The translations under genes and the position numbers were made by a program. Below, one piece after another: positions 7,298 to 43,492 of a DNA stretch of 64,000 bases. Source of the stretch: Gemmatimonadaceae bacterium (GTDB lineage Bacteria > Gemmatimonadota > Gemmatimonadetes > Gemmatimonadales > Gemmatimonadaceae); NCBI GenBank assembly GCA_019186945.1, contig JABAQJ010000004.1:1-64000 (forward strand). Direction: 5' to 3'. The notes beneath the pieces were generated by a model that searched no databases, had not been told where the DNA came from, and was given only the letters and a program-made list of their open reading frames with translations. How positions within the stretch are numbered: the first letter of the stretch is position 1; the number at the start of each line of letters is the position of its first letter.

Positions 7298-8002
7298 ATG
7301 AACGGTTTCAGGTCGCTATCGAGCGCGGCGCTCTTGGTGCTGGCCTTTGCCGCCGTCCTGCCGGCACAGGAAGGTGCGGGCCGCCGGCGTGGCGGCCGTG
7401 TCGGCGGCGCCGCACAGGCGAGCACGAGCGAGCCGACGTTCTGGCTGTCGGTTGGCACCGGCATTCTCCTTCTGGCACCCGTGTGGGACGGGAACTCGCA
7501 ATCGCTTTGGGACTTCGGAGACGGGTTCCCTCTGACATTCGCCGTCGAACGCGAGTTCGGCTCGGGCTTGAGTGCCGGCTTGGCCGGCTCGTATACCCGC
7601 GCGCCACTCGTTTACTCTGGGACCGGATCGAACAGCGCTTGCGATGGTTCCATCCGTTGTAATGCTCACGCCACGGTGGCAACCTATGGCGCCGTGTTTC
7701 GCGGCGGGGGCACGTCCGGTCAGACCGGTATGTATCAGTTCTTTCGGCTGTTCCTGGGCGCTATCCAGTATGGAGCATTCGAGCAGGACTCGCCACGCCG
7801 AAAACTTCCACCCGGCGGCGCAAACAAGGACCTCCTGTTCTCCGCCGGTTACGGCTTCGGGTATGCCTTCACCGGTGACTGGCGCCTGGAACTGACCGGA
7901 GAGTACATGAACGGCGTGCACGAACGCGACAACCTTCCCGGAAACGTCCAGACGCTGGCACGTCACTATTCGATCGGTCTCGGGCTTCGGGTGGGACTCT
8001 GA
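7298..8002 (+). CDS. Predicted outer-membrane beta-barrel protein
   Basis: I do not recognise a named family. The 234-residue product has a clear Sec signal peptide (MNGFRSL..., cleavage near AQEGA at about 26) and then a glycine/arginine-rich linker. The rest alternates short amphipathic strands rich in Gly, Tyr, Phe and Trp and ends in LGLRVGL, as expected for a small barrel with a terminal beta-signal. A single Cys pair about six residues apart (near 112-118) could form a loop disulfide. It is followed 50 bases later by ggt on the same strand. Function is unknown. Confidence 0.72.
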   Translation: MNGFRSLSSAALLVLAFAAVLPAQEGAGRRRGGRVGGAAQASTSEPTFWLSVGTGILLLAPVWDGNSQSLWDFGDGFPLTFAVEREFGSGLSAGLAGSYTRAPLVYSGTGSNSACDGSIRCNAHATVATYGAVFRGGGTSGQTGMYQFFRLFLGAIQYGAFEQDSPRRKLPPGGANKDLLFSAGYGFGYAFTGDWRLELTGEYMNGVHERDNLPGNVQTLARHYSIGLGLRVGL

Positions 8003-37803: not shown

Positions 37804-38841
37804 CTAACTATCGAGTTCCCGGCTCAATACCGGCGGCGCAGGAGGCTGTCGGCCCGTCAGCTGTGCCACGATCGCATCACCGTGAAACCGCCCGTTTTCG
37901 ATGAACACCTTGTTGGCGTCATATCCCGCCACCACCACACCGGCGACGAAAATGCCCGGAACGTCGGTCTCCAGCGTCGCCGGGTTGTGCGACGGAATAC
38001 CCGTGGACGCATCGATCGTCACACCTGCCCTCTGCAGAAGCTCGACATTCGGCGCGAAGCCGGTCATGAGAAATACGTGATCGGCGCGAAGCTTCTCGGT
38101 TGTGTTGTCCTGGCGCCGCAGCGTCACGTACTCAGGGTCGATCGCCGCAACCCGGCTGTTCCAGCGAACGCCGATCATCCCCTCGGCCACACGATTGGTG
38201 AAATCCGGCAGCACCCACGGCTTGATCTTCTTGTCGAATGAGGGCCCGAAGTGAACCAAAGTGACCTGGGCCCCGGCACGCCAGAGGTCGAGAGCTGCCT
38301 CGGCCGCCGAGTTCCCGCCTCCGACCACCACCGCCCGCTGCTGGAAGGCGTCATGCCCCTCGCGGTAACGGTGCGTGACATGCGGAAGCTCCTCGCCGAG
38401 AATGTTTAGCAGGTTGGGAGATCCCCAGTACCCGGTCGCGACGATGACAGCCCGCGCCCTCGTCTGTATGCGTGTCCCACTGCGCCTCACCGAGCGCACG
38501 ACGAATGCCTCGCCCTCGCGATCGATCGAATCCACTCGCTCGTATTGCCGCACCAGCAGCCCGAAGTGCCTGACGACGGCCCGGTAATAAGTCAGCGCAT
38601 CGCGTCGCGTCGGTTTCGATTCCGCGATGATGAATGGCAGACCACCGAGAGCCAGCTTCTCGGCAGTCGAGAAGAAGGTGGCGTACGTGGGATACTGCGT
38701 GATACTGGAGACGACCGATGCCGCATCGAGCACCAGCGTCCCCAACCCTGCGTTCTGCGCCGATATTGCGGCCGCCAGTCCGCACGGCCCGGCGCCAACG
38801 ACAACAACATCGAGCGTCTCGTCGGCTCGCTGGCCGCTCAT
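37804..38841 (-). CDS. ypdA: YpdA-type FAD/NAD(P) reductase, candidate bacillithiol disulfide reductase
   Basis: The 345-residue flavoprotein has the FAD-binding GAGPCG (16-21) and the NAD(P)-binding VVGGGNSAAEAAL. The sequence SSITQYPTYATFF after the first fold is typical of YpdA (Bdr), which reduces bacillithiol disulfide in Firmicutes and Bacteroidota. The usual CxxC redox pair of thioredoxin reductase is missing; Cys20 in the glycine loop is the only cysteine near the flavin, as in YpdA. That family assignment implies a bacillithiol-like thiol, but no bsh gene is in the window. Confidence 0.87.
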   Translation of the reverse strand: MSGQRADETLDVVVVGAGPCGLAAAISAQNAGLGTLVLDAASVVSSITQYPTYATFFSTAEKLALGGLPFIIAESKPTRRDALTYYRAVVRHFGLLVRQYERVDSIDREGEAFVVRSVRRSGTRIQTRARAVIVATGYWGSPNLLNILGEELPHVTHRYREGHDAFQQRAVVVGGGNSAAEAALDLWRAGAQVTLVHFGPSFDKKIKPWVLPDFTNRVAEGMIGVRWNSRVAAIDPEYVTLRRQDNTTEKLRADHVFLMTGFAPNVELLQRAGVTIDASTGIPSHNPATLETDVPGIFVAGVVVAGYDANKVFIENGRFHGDAIVAQLTGRQPPAPPVLSRELDS

Positions 38842-38875
38842 GGCGTGTGCTGGGGAGAGAGGTTCACGCTGGAAC

Positions 38876-40159
38876 TCAGCTGGCCTCGATGATCTGATCG
38901 CGTCGCGTGCCCACGCTCACGAAGCGGATGGGGGTCTCGGCGAGTTCCTGTATCCGATCCAGGTATCGACGGGCCTTTTCGGGGAGATCTTCCAGTCGTC
39001 GGACGTCTGCGATCGATTCCCGCCAGCCGTCGAACCACTCGTACAGGGGTTCGAGCCGATCTAGGGCGATGATGTCGGCCGGGAACTCGGTAAGAGTCTC
39101 ATCCCCGACTCGGTAGCCGGTGCAGATTGCGAGGCGGTCGAGCGTATCGAGGACGTCGAGTTTCGTGACGGCGAGACCGGTGAGCCCGTTCACGCGCGCC
39201 GCGTATCGTACCACGACGGAGTCGAACCAGCCGCAGCGCCGCGGCCGACCCGTTGTGGCGCCGAATTCGTTGCCCAGCTGGCGGACCTGGCTGCCTAACG
39301 GTTCGTCGAACTCCGTGGGGAGCGGTCCGTTCCCAACGCGCGTGGTGTACGCTTTGACCACGCCGATCGCCTGATCGATCGCCGACGGCGGCAACCCCGC
39401 GCCAGTTGCCGCCCCACCGACCGTCGTGCTGCTCGACGTGACGAACGGGTAGGTGCCGTGATCGACATCGAGAAGCGAGCCCTGCGCGCCTTCCAGCAGG
39501 ATGGCGCCACCGCCGCGAAGCGAGCGATGCATGACGAGACCGACGTCGTCCGCCAGCATCAACAGCCGTGGGGCAATCGCCATGAGCCGGCCCATCGTTT
39601 CCTCGACGTCGGCCCGACTGGTGGAACCGAACCGTTGCAAGAGGGCGTTGGCGTGGTCCACGCCACGCTCGACCAGTGGGCGCAAGCGGTCGGGGTGCTT
39701 CAGGTCGACAACCCGAACACCGCGTCGGCCAACCTTGTCCTCATACGACGGTCCGATCCCGCGCCCCGTCGTTCCGATCGCCTTGTTCGCCGCGCTCTCG
39801 GCATCCACGAGCTTGTGATACGGCATCACGAGGTGGGCGCGATCCGATACGTAGAGACGTCCTTGCACATCGATGCCGTCGGCAACCAGCTGGTCGATCT
39901 CGCCGAACAGCTTCTCGGCGTCCAGCACAACGCCATTGCCTATCGCGCAGCGTACACCGGAGTGGAGGATCCCGCTCGGGATCTGGTGCAGCACGAAAGT
40001 CGTGTCTCCGATGTGGACCGTGTGTCCGGCATTCGCGCCACCCTGGTACCTGACAACCCAGTCGGCTCGTTCGGCGATGACATCGACGAGCTTGCCCTTT
40101 CCCTCATCGCCCCACTGGGCACCGACGATGACGATGGTGCGGATCTTTGAGTCGAACAT
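38876..40159 (-). CDS. purA: Adenylosuccinate synthetase
   Basis: PurA joins IMP and aspartate using GTP, the first step from IMP to AMP. The 427-residue protein is full length with the GAQWGDEGKGK loop (13-23), GTTGRGIGPSYEDK and QGSLLDVDHGTYPFVTSS. It lies 35 bases before the ypdA start on the same strand. Its upstream region (40160-40552) holds a predicted promoter and an intrinsic terminator and may regulate it. Confidence 0.96.
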   Translation of the reverse strand: MFDSKIRTIVIVGAQWGDEGKGKLVDVIAERADWVVRYQGGANAGHTVHIGDTTFVLHQIPSGILHSGVRCAIGNGVVLDAEKLFGEIDQLVADGIDVQGRLYVSDRAHLVMPYHKLVDAESAANKAIGTTGRGIGPSYEDKVGRRGVRVVDLKHPDRLRPLVERGVDHANALLQRFGSTSRADVEETMGRLMAIAPRLLMLADDVGLVMHRSLRGGGAILLEGAQGSLLDVDHGTYPFVTSSSTTVGGAATGAGLPPSAIDQAIGVVKAYTTRVGNGPLPTEFDEPLGSQVRQLGNEFGATTGRPRRCGWFDSVVVRYAARVNGLTGLAVTKLDVLDTLDRLAICTGYRVGDETLTEFPADIIALDRLEPLYEWFDGWRESIADVRRLEDLPEKARRYLDRIQELAETPIRFVSVGTRRDQIIEAS

Positions 40160-40333
40160 CGGTGCGTAGTGAGGATCCTGGGGAATGATGTCCGGTAACG
40201 GTCGAACAGGACGCGACGGCTGCAGACGGCTGCAATGGAAGGGCTAGACGTGCGGTGCGCTGACGGTAGTGAACTTCCGGTCCGACGGTATGCTGCACGC
40301 GGGGGGGCCGCGCTCCGCGGCATCGAACGGGCA

Positions 40334-40364
40334 CAAAAAAACGCCCCCACCACACTGGAGCGTT
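40334..40364 (-). terminator. Intrinsic terminator upstream of purA
   Basis: On the minus strand AACGCTCC and GGGGCGTT form an eight-pair stem (one G-U) around a nine-base loop, followed by seven T (40341-40335). It points towards purA, whose ATG is 175 bases further on. Because no gene ends just before it, it may terminate a short leader or small RNA rather than a coding transcript. Confidence 0.75.
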
Positions 40365-40438
40365 GGCGAAAGCTAGCGCTGGATGGCGTGCTCGCAAGCG
40401 AACCGATGGCAGAACCCTTCGCTCGCATACCGAACGGG

Positions 40439-40454
40439 GCCGCATCGATGCGGC
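40439..40454. repeat. Perfect 16-base palindrome (gccgcatcgatgcggc)
   Basis: The palindrome is centred on ATCGAT and lies just after the predicted -10 of the purA-side promoter. It could be a dimeric repressor site or a leader hairpin. I have not seen the same half-site elsewhere in the window. Confidence 0.5.
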
Positions 40455-40467
40455 TCGGGCATGGCAG

Positions 40468-40496
40468 CTAATGGACCGGATCCCCTGCCCTGTCAA
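40468..40496 (-). promoter_or_regulatory. Predicted sigma-70-type promoter upstream of purA
   Basis: The minus strand has a perfect -35 TTGACA (40496-40491), a 17-base spacer and CATTAG (40473-40468) as a weak -10. A transcript from it would start near 40462. An ATG at 40462 opens a 29-codon frame ending at 40373, nine bases before the terminator stem, so a leader peptide is possible but unproven. Confidence 0.5.
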
Positions 40497-40594
40497 ACCG
40501 AGCGCCGTGGACATGCATCGGTGCCCATGTCGCACTGGCGCTAGCGTTTCCAGTGTGGCATCGTGCGCCCACAACTTCAGGAGCGTACGCGGCA

Positions 40595-40996
40595 ATGCGC
40601 CTGGTGATCGTTCTGTTCGTGCTGACCGTGGCCCAGCAGGGTCGATGGAAAGAAGTCGGTACGACCTCGTCGTCAAATCCAGTCTACGTGGACGTGCGCT
40701 CGATCAAGCGCGCGGACGGCATCGTTCACGCCACCGTGCGGGTCGTCTATCAGAAACCGGTGAAGGTCGGCAAGTCCCTGATGGCGGCCTCGCGGTCGAC
40801 CGCGATGTTCGACTGCGCCAAACAGACCTTCGCGGTCAAGGAGAACGTCTACTACGTGGACGAGAAGAAGAACATCGTGCATTCCCGGAGCGTAAACGCC
40901 AAGCCCGGGTTCGGCCCGGCCATCAAGGGATCGTTCGCAGATGTCGCCCTCGTCCAGGTCTGCGCGATGGACAAGGCACCTAACGCCAAGCCGTAA
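40595..40996 (+). CDS. Small secreted protein, possible surface-adhesin-E-like
   Basis: From the ATG at 40595, with AGGAG 11 bases upstream, the product has 133 residues. A short signal peptide (MRLVIVLFVLTVAQQ) is followed by W-x2-VG, a VYVDVRSIKR strand and several further strands, ending with one Cys pair (FDC and VQVC) that could bridge. The layout is like the surface-adhesin E family (small periplasmic beta proteins of unknown role), at modest confidence. Its last 17 bases overlap the convergent DUF456 gene. Confidence 0.72.
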   Translation: MRLVIVLFVLTVAQQGRWKEVGTTSSSNPVYVDVRSIKRADGIVHATVRVVYQKPVKVGKSLMAASRSTAMFDCAKQTFAVKENVYYVDEKKNIVHSRSVNAKPGFGPAIKGSFADVALVQVCAMDKAPNAKP

Positions 40997-41474
40997 ACAC
41001 CAGCAGGACCGCGACGACCGTCGCGATCCCGGTCTTGATCGCCGCCGCCAGAAGGCGGCCGATCAGCGCACCAGTGGCAACGCGCGTTGCCGTCCCGGCC
41101 GTCGCGGTGCGATTCGTGTACTCCGCCACCAGCGCACCGCAAAAAGCGCCGGCGAACGCGCCGATGATCGGTCCCAGCACCGGGACCGGGACACCGACTA
41201 TCGCTCCAACCAGACCACCGACCAAGGCCCCCCAGCCAGCGCGACGAGATCCCCCGTAACGCCGCGCATAGCGACTTCCCAGGGAGAACTCGAGATACTC
41301 GGCGATCACACCCAATCCTGTCGCGATCGCGATCGCAGTCCATCCGATCTGCGCCTGTGGCACGAGCATGTCGTACCCGATACCTGCGGCCACCATGATC
41401 CACAGTCCCGGCAATCCGAGTGGGACGAGGACGAGCGCGACAGCGCAGATCGCTGCCAGCACCACGATGGCCAC
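40980..41474 (-). CDS. DUF456 membrane protein
   Basis: The 164-residue protein has four or five hydrophobic segments rich in glycine, with the DUF456 arrangement: an N-terminal pair around LPLGLPGLWIMV, LEFSLGSRYARRYGGSRRAGWGAL in the middle, and GxxxG-rich helices (GGLVGAIVGV, GAFAGAFCGAL). No function is known for the family. The stop falls inside the end of the plus-strand secreted protein gene. Confidence 0.88.
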   Translation of the reverse strand: MAIVVLAAICAVALVLVPLGLPGLWIMVAAGIGYDMLVPQAQIGWTAIAIATGLGVIAEYLEFSLGSRYARRYGGSRRAGWGALVGGLVGAIVGVPVPVLGPIIGAFAGAFCGALVAEYTNRTATAGTATRVATGALIGRLLAAAIKTGIATVVAVLLVFTAWR

Positions 41475-41480
41475 GATGCG

Positions 41481-42383
41481 TCAGGCAGGCACGAGAGCCG
41501 CGTCCCGAAGCAAGGCATCTACCTGTGCGATCTCGTCCGGCGACGCCTCCAGCAATGGCAGACGCACCGGGCCACCGGAGAGGCCAACGCGCTCCATCGC
41601 CACCTTCACCGCGCCGATTCCCAGGCGGCCGACGATCTCCGCCCCCATAGGCGCCAGGCGGCGCTGCGCCTCGCCGGCGTCGGCAGGGCGTCCGTCCCGG
41701 TGCGCACGGTAGATCTCGAGCGCCAGATCGGCGGCGAACAATGCGACTGCCAGGATACCTCCGCGAGCACCCAGCTGCAACGCCTGGTGAAACGTGCCGG
41801 CGTGGCCGGTGATGACGGTGAAGTCATTCCCCTGTGCCTCCAGATAGCGCGCCATCGTCGCCATGTCGCCCGAGCTGTCCTTCATCCCGATGATGTTCGG
41901 ATGTCGTGCCAGCGTCGCCACCAGTTCCGGCTCGAGCCTGAAGTGCATGTACTTCGGGATGTTGTACAACAGCACCGGGATCGGACTCTCGACAGCCACC
42001 GTTTCGTAGTGCGCGACCAGCGCCTTCGTCGTCATCGCGTTCGAGTAGTAATGCGGCGCAACGACCAGGACCGCATCCGCACCGCGGCTGGCTGCCTCTT
42101 TGCAGCGTCGCACGCACGCACGAGTCGACTCGGCGCCCGTGCCGGCGATCAGCCAGCGATCCGACGGAATCACAGTGCGTGACATCTCGATCAACCTCAG
42201 GCGTTCCGACTCCTCGAGCAGCGCGGCCTCGCCAGTCGACCCGCACACCACCAGACCGTGCAATCCAGCATCGAGGTGCGCGCGTGCGTTCATCCCGAAC
42301 GCATCGAGATCCACGTCACCGCGACTGTCGAAGGTCGTGACTACCGGACCGAACACTCCCGTCAACTGTCTTGTCATGGCCAA
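41481..42383 (-). CDS. DapA/HOGA-type class I aldolase
   Basis: The 300-residue TIM-barrel protein belongs to the dihydrodipicolinate synthase superfamily. The Schiff-base Lys168 lies in IIGMKDSSG and the proton-relay Tyr140 in LLYNIP; the CGSTGEAALL substrate loop (48-56) replaces the usual GTTGE of true DapA and is closer to the HOGA or sugar-acid aldolase branch. No lysine-pathway neighbour supports dapA, so I leave the gene unnamed. The end of pilT overlaps its start by 10 bases. Confidence 0.87.
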   Translation of the reverse strand: MAMTRQLTGVFGPVVTTFDSRGDVDLDAFGMNARAHLDAGLHGLVVCGSTGEAALLEESERLRLIEMSRTVIPSDRWLIAGTGAESTRACVRRCKEAASRGADAVLVVAPHYYSNAMTTKALVAHYETVAVESPIPVLLYNIPKYMHFRLEPELVATLARHPNIIGMKDSSGDMATMARYLEAQGNDFTVITGHAGTFHQALQLGARGGILAVALFAADLALEIYRAHRDGRPADAGEAQRRLAPMGAEIVGRLGIGAVKVAMERVGLSGGPVRLPLLEASPDEIAQVDALLRDAALVPA

Positions 42384-43492
42384 TTCGCTCCCCCCGCTGC
42401 CCCGCCGAAGCCGGACCCGGGCATTGTTGTCTTCTTGAATACGCTCATCTGCAACTCGAAATCCGCCGGACGCGTCGACGCTGCCAGCGCCGTCTCGAAC
42501 GAGACCGCACCGCTCGTCACCAGATCCGCAAGGTGCTGGTCGAACGTCTGCATCCCGTACTGCTCGCGTCCGTCAGCGATGAACTCTCGAATCTCCGACA
42601 CCTTCTGGCCCAGCATCAACTCCTTGATCGTCGGCGTCACGATCATGATCTCGCACGCGACGATCCGGCCATTGCCGTCGGCACGCGGGAGCAGACGCTG
42701 CGAAATGACCGCGTGCAACGATTCCGCCAGCCGCAGTCGCACGTTGTCCTGCTCGTCCGGCGGAAACATCGAGATGATCCGCGCAAGCGTCGTCTGTGCA
42801 TCCGGCGTGTGCACCGTCGCCATCAGCAGGTGACCCGTTTCCGCCGCCTTCATCGCCGTGTCCACGGTCTCCGGGTCGCGCAATTCCCCCAGGATGATCA
42901 CGTCCGGATCCTGACGCAACGCCGCCTTCAGGCCTTGGCGAAACGTTTCCGTGTCGACGCCAATTTCGCGCTGAGTGATCGAGGAGCGCATGTCACGGTG
43001 CAGGAACTCGATCGGTTCCTCGAGCGTGACAATGTGTTTCTCCGCCGTGGCGTTGATGTGGCCGACCATCGCCGCAAGGGAACTCGACTTCCCGGAACCA
43101 GTCACTCCGGTCACCAGCACCATCCCTCGCTCGGTCAGTGCAATGGGTTCGATCGAGGCGGGCAGGTTCAATTCGGCGAACGTCGGAACCCGGAACGGGA
43201 TCACGCGCATCACGATCATGAAGCTCGATCGCTGACGCAGGATGTTCACCCGGAACCGGCCGATTCCGGGCGCCCCCCACGAGCAATCGTAGTCAAGCAG
43301 CGAATCGATGTTGGCCTTGACCTTCTCGCTCGAAATCAGACGCAGCGCGATCGACCGCGTCTGATCCGGTGACAGGGCCTGCTTCGTCATCGCCACCAGC
43401 TTGCCATCGATTCGGGCACGAAAGACGTCGCCAGCCTTGATGTGCAGGTCCGATGCACCGCGATCGACCGCAGCCTTGATGATCTTCTCCAT
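42374..43492 (-). CDS. pilT: Twitching motility ATPase PilT
   Basis: PilT powers retraction of type IV pili. From the ATG at 43492, which shares a base with the trpS stop (TGATG), it has 372 residues. Walker A is GVTGSGKS (129-136), the Asp box is TLEEPIE (156-162), Walker B spans 191-206 (LRQDPDVIILGELRD) and the His box is HLLMATVHT (221-229). The frame open to 43702 is a read-through of trpS. No pilB or pilC is in the window, and the gene sits with unrelated housekeeping genes. Its C-terminus ends in a Gly-rich tail (SGFGGAAGG). Confidence 0.94.
   Translation of the reverse strand: MEKIIKAAVDRGASDLHIKAGDVFRARIDGKLVAMTKQALSPDQTRSIALRLISSEKVKANIDSLLDYDCSWGAPGIGRFRVNILRQRSSFMIVMRVIPFRVPTFAELNLPASIEPIALTERGMVLVTGVTGSGKSSSLAAMVGHINATAEKHIVTLEEPIEFLHRDMRSSITQREIGVDTETFRQGLKAALRQDPDVIILGELRDPETVDTAMKAAETGHLLMATVHTPDAQTTLARIISMFPPDEQDNVRLRLAESLHAVISQRLLPRADGNGRIVACEIMIVTPTIKELMLGQKVSEIREFIADGREQYGMQTFDQHLADLVTSGAVSFETALAASTRPADFELQMSVFKKTTMPGSGFGGAAGGANWP

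Follow-up and report, generated by a model that had tools for sequence, protein, structure and literature searches.

A candidate promoter-proximal attenuator of purA in the Gemmatimonadaceae

The locus upstream of purA

The stretch of DNA that was analysed (the window) comprises 64,000 nucleotides of a Gemmatimonadaceae bacterium (contig JABAQJ010000004.1, positions 1 to 64,000) and carries purA on the minus strand at 38876–40159, with its ATG at 40159. The gene encodes adenylosuccinate synthetase (PF00709, E 2.2e-170), which commits IMP to adenine nucleotides with GTP spent, and the PurA proteins of loci L093–L095 (Gemmatimonadota/Gemmatimonadetes) are 58–63% identical to that of the window. 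The gene next upstream (40553–40996, plus strand) is divergent and thus does not need a terminator at this place. It encodes a small protein with a match to Surface-adhesin protein E (PF16747), and its 3′ end overlaps a convergent DUF456 gene on the minus strand (40980–41474).

Before purA, the minus strand holds a compact unit whose parts were recognised by comparison with relatives. A −35 element TTGCGA (40397–40392), in the register of the TTGACA, TTGACT or TTGCNN of relatives, is followed by 16 nt, a −10 element TAGCTT (40375–40370; TAGATT in most relatives), the six bases TCGCCA and a predicted terminator hairpin at 40363–40341. The 5′ arm of this hairpin, ACGCTCC (40363–40357), is joined through the loop AGTGTGGTG (40356–40348) to the 3′ arm GGGGCGT (40347–40341), after which TTTTTT completes a run of seven T (40341–40335), the first T being also paired with the A at 40363. 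By the usual rule, which puts the start near the seventh base past the −10 hexamer, the RNA would begin at A40363, with which the stem also begins. The remaining 5′ UTR of 175 nt (40334–40160) is unusually long, as most relatives have 18–90 nt. The window copy is a diverged form of the relatives' unit, with a −35 element that agrees with TTGACA at only four of six positions and a hairpin that, at −9.4 kcal/mol, is the weakest among 53 compared.

A sequence-only reading of the same locus had assembled one purA leader starting at about 40462 from a promoter-like TTGACA-17-CATTAG (TTGACA at 40496–40491, CATTAG at 40473–40468), the perfect 16-base palindrome GCCGCATCGATGCGGC (40454–40439), a 29-codon ATG frame (40462–40373) and the hairpin ACGCTCC-9-GGGGCGT, whose run of seven T ends at 40335 and leaves 175 bases to the purA ATG. 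The letters are all present as described, with promoter, frame and hairpin on the minus strand. What did not hold is that they belong together, since the conserved unit is smaller and has a promoter which that reading missed, about 100 bases nearer to purA, moving the predicted start to 40363.

Taken one by one, these features have little weight. A promoter scan of 38000–43000 passed over CATTAG, in which the T of position 6 is missing; a pattern fitted afterwards to this promoter is expected 0.13 times in the window, which contains six perfect 16-base palindromes; and terminator-like sites in the scan numbered four in 5 kb versus 2.2 in shuffles. RNA from 40462 (a leader of 125 nt) folded no better than its own shuffles (z −0.49), by which a structured leader of this kind was rejected. 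DNA comparison of 40520–40335 with 58 relatives gave scattered matches. Among the matches listed, the only two before purA came from the closest relatives (G025 and G028) and covered just the part from the −10 element to the T-run (40379–40335), and none showed a counterpart of the palindrome or the 29-codon frame before purA. In addition, the frame ends inside the conserved promoter. A leader-peptide attenuator was discarded because the frame precedes the predicted start and this comparison found no counterpart of it before purA. The far promoter (40496–40468), the palindrome and the frame were judged to lie outside the conserved unit on account of the uncalled −10, the missing counterparts, the ordinary folding and the six such palindromes in the window, the palindrome at 40454–40439 being regarded as incidental. 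The comparison across relatives proposed in the sequence-only reading thus upheld the terminator, which is raised above chance by its conservation and by the second putative promoter, TTGCGA-16-TAGCTT (40397–40370), and left the more distant elements without a conserved counterpart.

Conservation of the unit and its specificity for purA

Reading the purA upstream regions of 34 genomes of the family showed that the conserved unit is a putative promoter firing straight into a terminator hairpin. In most of them, TTGAC(A) or a similar −35 element precedes TAGATT, six bases and ACGCCCCG-loop-CGGGGCGTTTTT. With no condition on the stem sequence and a spacing left free from 3 to 19, the unit was found in 25 of the 34 genomes (window included; a 35th family genome, G008, was excluded as its purA match was without a start), and in all 25 ACGC occupied positions 7–10 downstream of the −10 hexamer, where +1 to +4 are predicted. 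The spacing between the −10 box and the base of the hairpin is fixed in relatives, and the T-run is often just 18–50 nt from the ATG. Terminator-like hairpins before purA were detected on the same strand in 20 of the 34 genomes and on the opposite strand in none, compared with 0.6 in shuffles. The unit was absent from nine of the 34 genomes and is therefore dispensable. In four family genomes without the hairpin (L039, L044, L047 and L058), the purA ATG follows some 7 nt after a −10-like box (TAGATT, TAGCTT or TATCTT), as would suit a leaderless mRNA.

Pattern searches over 179 family genomes led to the same position. A strict pattern (−10, ACGC, GCGTTTT) matched in 87 of 179 genomes versus 1 of 179 for the reversed pattern, and 34 of the 38 loci fetched lay before purA on the same strand. 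A pattern of promoter and ACGC that was blind to hairpin and T-run matched in 62 of 179 genomes versus one for the control, with 28 of 30 fetched loci before purA; all 28 carried a T-run that begins 22 to 40 bases past the start, in 26 cases within 22 to 27 bases. On one contig, the purA promoter and start module occur twice in nearly identical form at a distance of 2.4 kb (G126:C136:5269-5307 and 7721-7759), through a duplication or an assembly artefact.

The remaining two of the 30 loci (L348 and L351) are rimP-nusA sites of genus g30, which the strict pattern had also reached. The rimP-nusA operon leader in this genus (L083 1500–1620, L187, L189, L348 and L351) opens with TAGATT-6-ACGCC...GGCGTTTT and continues into a second, canonical terminator, AATGTGGGGTGGTCCCCCGCATTTTTTT. 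It has the −10 box, the 6-nt spacing, the ACGC at +1, the hairpin and the terminator before the gene (RimP_N) in common with the purA unit, and differs in its two consecutive hairpins and in being found, within these searches, in genus g30 only. This leader, which uses the shared start module, may act as an attenuator of the nusA operon.

The stem itself shows covariation. Changes on both sides occurred in six of 12 pairs across 42 aligned sequences, above all 500 shuffles and all slid controls. The alignment (A1) contains only sequences picked with ACGC(C/T) at +1, so its nearly invariant basal pairs carry no weight, and the free-spacing test on 34 genomes is the fair one. Among the 53 hairpins compared, the median energy was −18.7 kcal/mol and 48 had at least five T within eight bases after the stem, U-tracts being short or interrupted in several relatives (L050, L054, L056 and L060). 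Loops and upper stems vary freely, with no conserved seed. The upstream regions thus present a promoter followed by a conserved GC-rich stem and a U-tract (shortened in a few genomes) ahead of purA on the same strand, as an attenuator would.

Elsewhere in the class, other families retain both promoter and terminator, with AGGA rather than ACGC at +1. In a wider set of 64 loci, drawn from other families and from one further class, a promoter-like site, called by a rule devised for this analysis, was present at 37 loci and absent by that rule from 27. AGGA fell within the first 22 bases at 24 of the 37, and in 23 of these 24 at position 7 or 8, which is the predicted start. A run of five T was present at 26 of the 37, both features at 20, the T-run without AGGA at six and AGGA without the T-run at four; four loci of the other class (f9) had the promoter with neither. 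Downstream of AGGA come predicted hairpins of differing stem sequence and a T-run. Inspection by eye revealed no consistent base pairing between AGGAT and the rest of the leader, and wider loci without the unit often seem, also by eye, to have purA directly behind another frame. When sites were called by stricter mechanical rules, 35 of 98 loci had both promoter and terminator, with the terminator downstream at 34 of the 35.

Based on pattern searches, the unit appears almost specific for purA. TAGCTT-N6-9-AGGAT-N20-50-TTTTT matched in 8 of 25 other-family genomes, each time at purA, and TAGCTT-N6-8-AGGATAC gave seven sites in 23 such genomes, six of them at purA. A purine regulon was rejected, the promoter/AGGAT and promoter/AGGAT/T-run patterns (21–25 other-family genomes) matching purA except for one site. 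The loosest pattern, AGGATNC then T6, gave scattered other matches; none of six inspected non-purA loci had the purA arrangement, and one of them, L308, has AGGAT 14 nt downstream of a TAGCTT, a spacing different from that at purA. A generic terminator was likewise dismissed, as ACGCC-N6-20-GGCGTTTTT is rare in the 16 genomes searched (0 to 2 per genome, 7 in G021) and lies at purA in 12 of them.

Among 77 diverse purA loci, a terminator-like hairpin within 150 bases upstream was found on the same strand at nine and on the opposite strand at two, with 0.6 expected. Three of these distant loci, L108, L119 and L142 (Heliobacterium, Nitrospirae and bacterium ADurb.Bin236), have TTGAC(A/T)-17/18-TANCAT directly before a terminator-like hairpin upstream of purA, and in L119 and L142 part of the hairpin could base-pair with the 5′ end. 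A strong hairpin with a T-run lies 15–26 nt before the purA start in all three of L138, L144 and L109 (Balneola, Gracilimonas and Fodinibius). The likeness in other phyla could reflect common descent or repeated origin.

Proposed mechanism and alternative explanations

By sequence comparison, the putative promoter, the hairpin and the U-tract are conserved in their order and in their spacing to the −10 box, and they are nearly exclusive to purA; the start site, the occurrence of termination and a regulated read-through are what we infer. The favoured reading, with a probability of roughly 0.7, is that the unit is a promoter-proximal intrinsic-terminator attenuator of purA with a predicted start at about A40363. 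Attenuation of purA had been proposed in the sequence-only reading, and the terminator kept between promoter and purA speaks for that idea, with a different promoter and start. From TTGCGA-16-TAGCTT, RNA polymerase would begin close to A40363 and transcribe the terminator hairpin as the first 23 nt of the RNA, followed by the U residues (seven, the first paired with the start A). Part of the polymerases would release an RNA of about 25–30 nt, and the remaining polymerases would read on into purA, the read-through setting purA expression. With a stop signal placed almost exactly at the predicted mRNA start, purA may be under a short and so far uncatalogued on/off control.

The unit shows no recognisable sensor element. 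In the window's family, where the first nucleotide of the predicted RNA is already part of the hairpin, the upstream RNA needed for a competing antiterminator would be absent if the start is right, making an upstream antiterminator fold unlikely in this family; the competing structure of a terminator/antiterminator RNA switch is accordingly missing, given the predicted start. Initiation that depends on start site or NTP supply is a more plausible means of control, and so is a protein factor. ACGC and AGGA keep a strict register with the predicted start, which implicates the start event or a factor acting on the early complex, and control would then be exerted through the start position, the supply of initiating or early NTPs, or a factor binding the early elongation complex. 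A speculative and rather doubtful extension is a class-wide purA attenuator read at the polymerase's start site, in which the first nucleotides (ACGC in one family, AGGA in others) would decide between an intact terminator stem and an escaping polymerase, and purine NTP supply would control purA without aptamer, leader peptide or antiterminator fold. As the window copy is the weakest of those compared, regulation may have decayed there.

The main rival to attenuation is a 5′-terminal stem-loop that shields the purA mRNA from decay dependent on the 5′ end, with a secondary U-tract and little termination. The location of the hairpin at the very 5′ end of the predicted RNA in the window's family and the median energy of −18.7 kcal/mol would suit such a role. 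Protection needs no U-tract, however, yet 48 of 53 stems are followed by one and the loci picked without a T condition have a T-run too; outside the family, moreover, AGGA lies ahead of the stem, which is then not 5′-terminal. Protection is thus considered unlikely. That the hairpin merely ends transcription of the upstream gene, with purA transcribed otherwise, is improbable: the adjoining upstream sequence resembles, by eye, the end of a co-directional gene in many relatives, but the terminator lies downstream of the promoter at nearly all loci where both were called, its spacing to the −10 box is fixed, a T-run often 18–50 nt from the ATG leaves little space for another promoter, and the upstream gene of the window is divergent.

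The unit would also be a complete transcription unit of about 25–30 nt, from which a free, tiny trans-acting RNA could be the main product and purA read-through a by-product. The freely varying loops and upper stems without a conserved seed, and the near-constant position before purA, make this quite improbable. A longer leader starting at about 40462, with the terminator controlled by the 29-codon peptide or the palindrome, is highly improbable; its letters are present, but its −10 hexamer is poor, its folding is not unusual, a counterpart before purA was not found among 58 relatives and the nearer promoter is the conserved one.

Relation to known systems

Purine, PRPP and other nucleotide riboswitches of Rfam would likewise precede purine genes and end in a terminator. 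The purA unit differs from them in having no aptamer-sized structure and no Rfam match: covariance-model searches found nothing in the window at the gathering score, nothing relevant at E values up to 10, and only tRNAs over 17 loci. A known riboswitch was excluded on this basis, which bears out the earlier impression of no known purine riboswitch and completes the Rfam search that had been suggested with it. No description of a purA attenuator or of this leader was found in titles and abstract openings, most subscription journals being outside that scope. The element is thus compact, nearly purA-specific and matched by no Rfam family, in a little-studied bacterial lineage. An mRNA that opens with its own terminator leaves little room for a sensor besides initiation itself or a bound factor, and would therefore offer a clean case for how nucleotide pools reach early transcription.

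In the start-site switching of the E. coli pyrC type, formation of a 5′ hairpin that blocks translation depends on the start nucleotide. The purA unit may tie a 5′ hairpin to the start nucleotide in a similar way, whereas its hairpin is followed by a U-tract and is set apart from the ribosome site.

The pyrG attenuator of Bacillus subtilis depends on CTP-sensitive reiterative initiation, in which extra G residues at the start site prevent attenuation (Meng et al. 2004, as cited in PMC4448216). Unlike pyrG as described there, the purA unit begins with ACGC (25 of 25 family genomes) or approximately AGGA (elsewhere) and so offers no homopolymer run for slippage, and nothing lies ahead of its stem in the window's family. 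In both, a rho-independent terminator, predicted in the case of purA, stands between the start site and a gene of nucleotide synthesis. The first nucleotides of the pyrG RNA act as the sensor, a likeness that may extend to the purA unit, and among the systems considered here pyrG is its closest experimental precedent.
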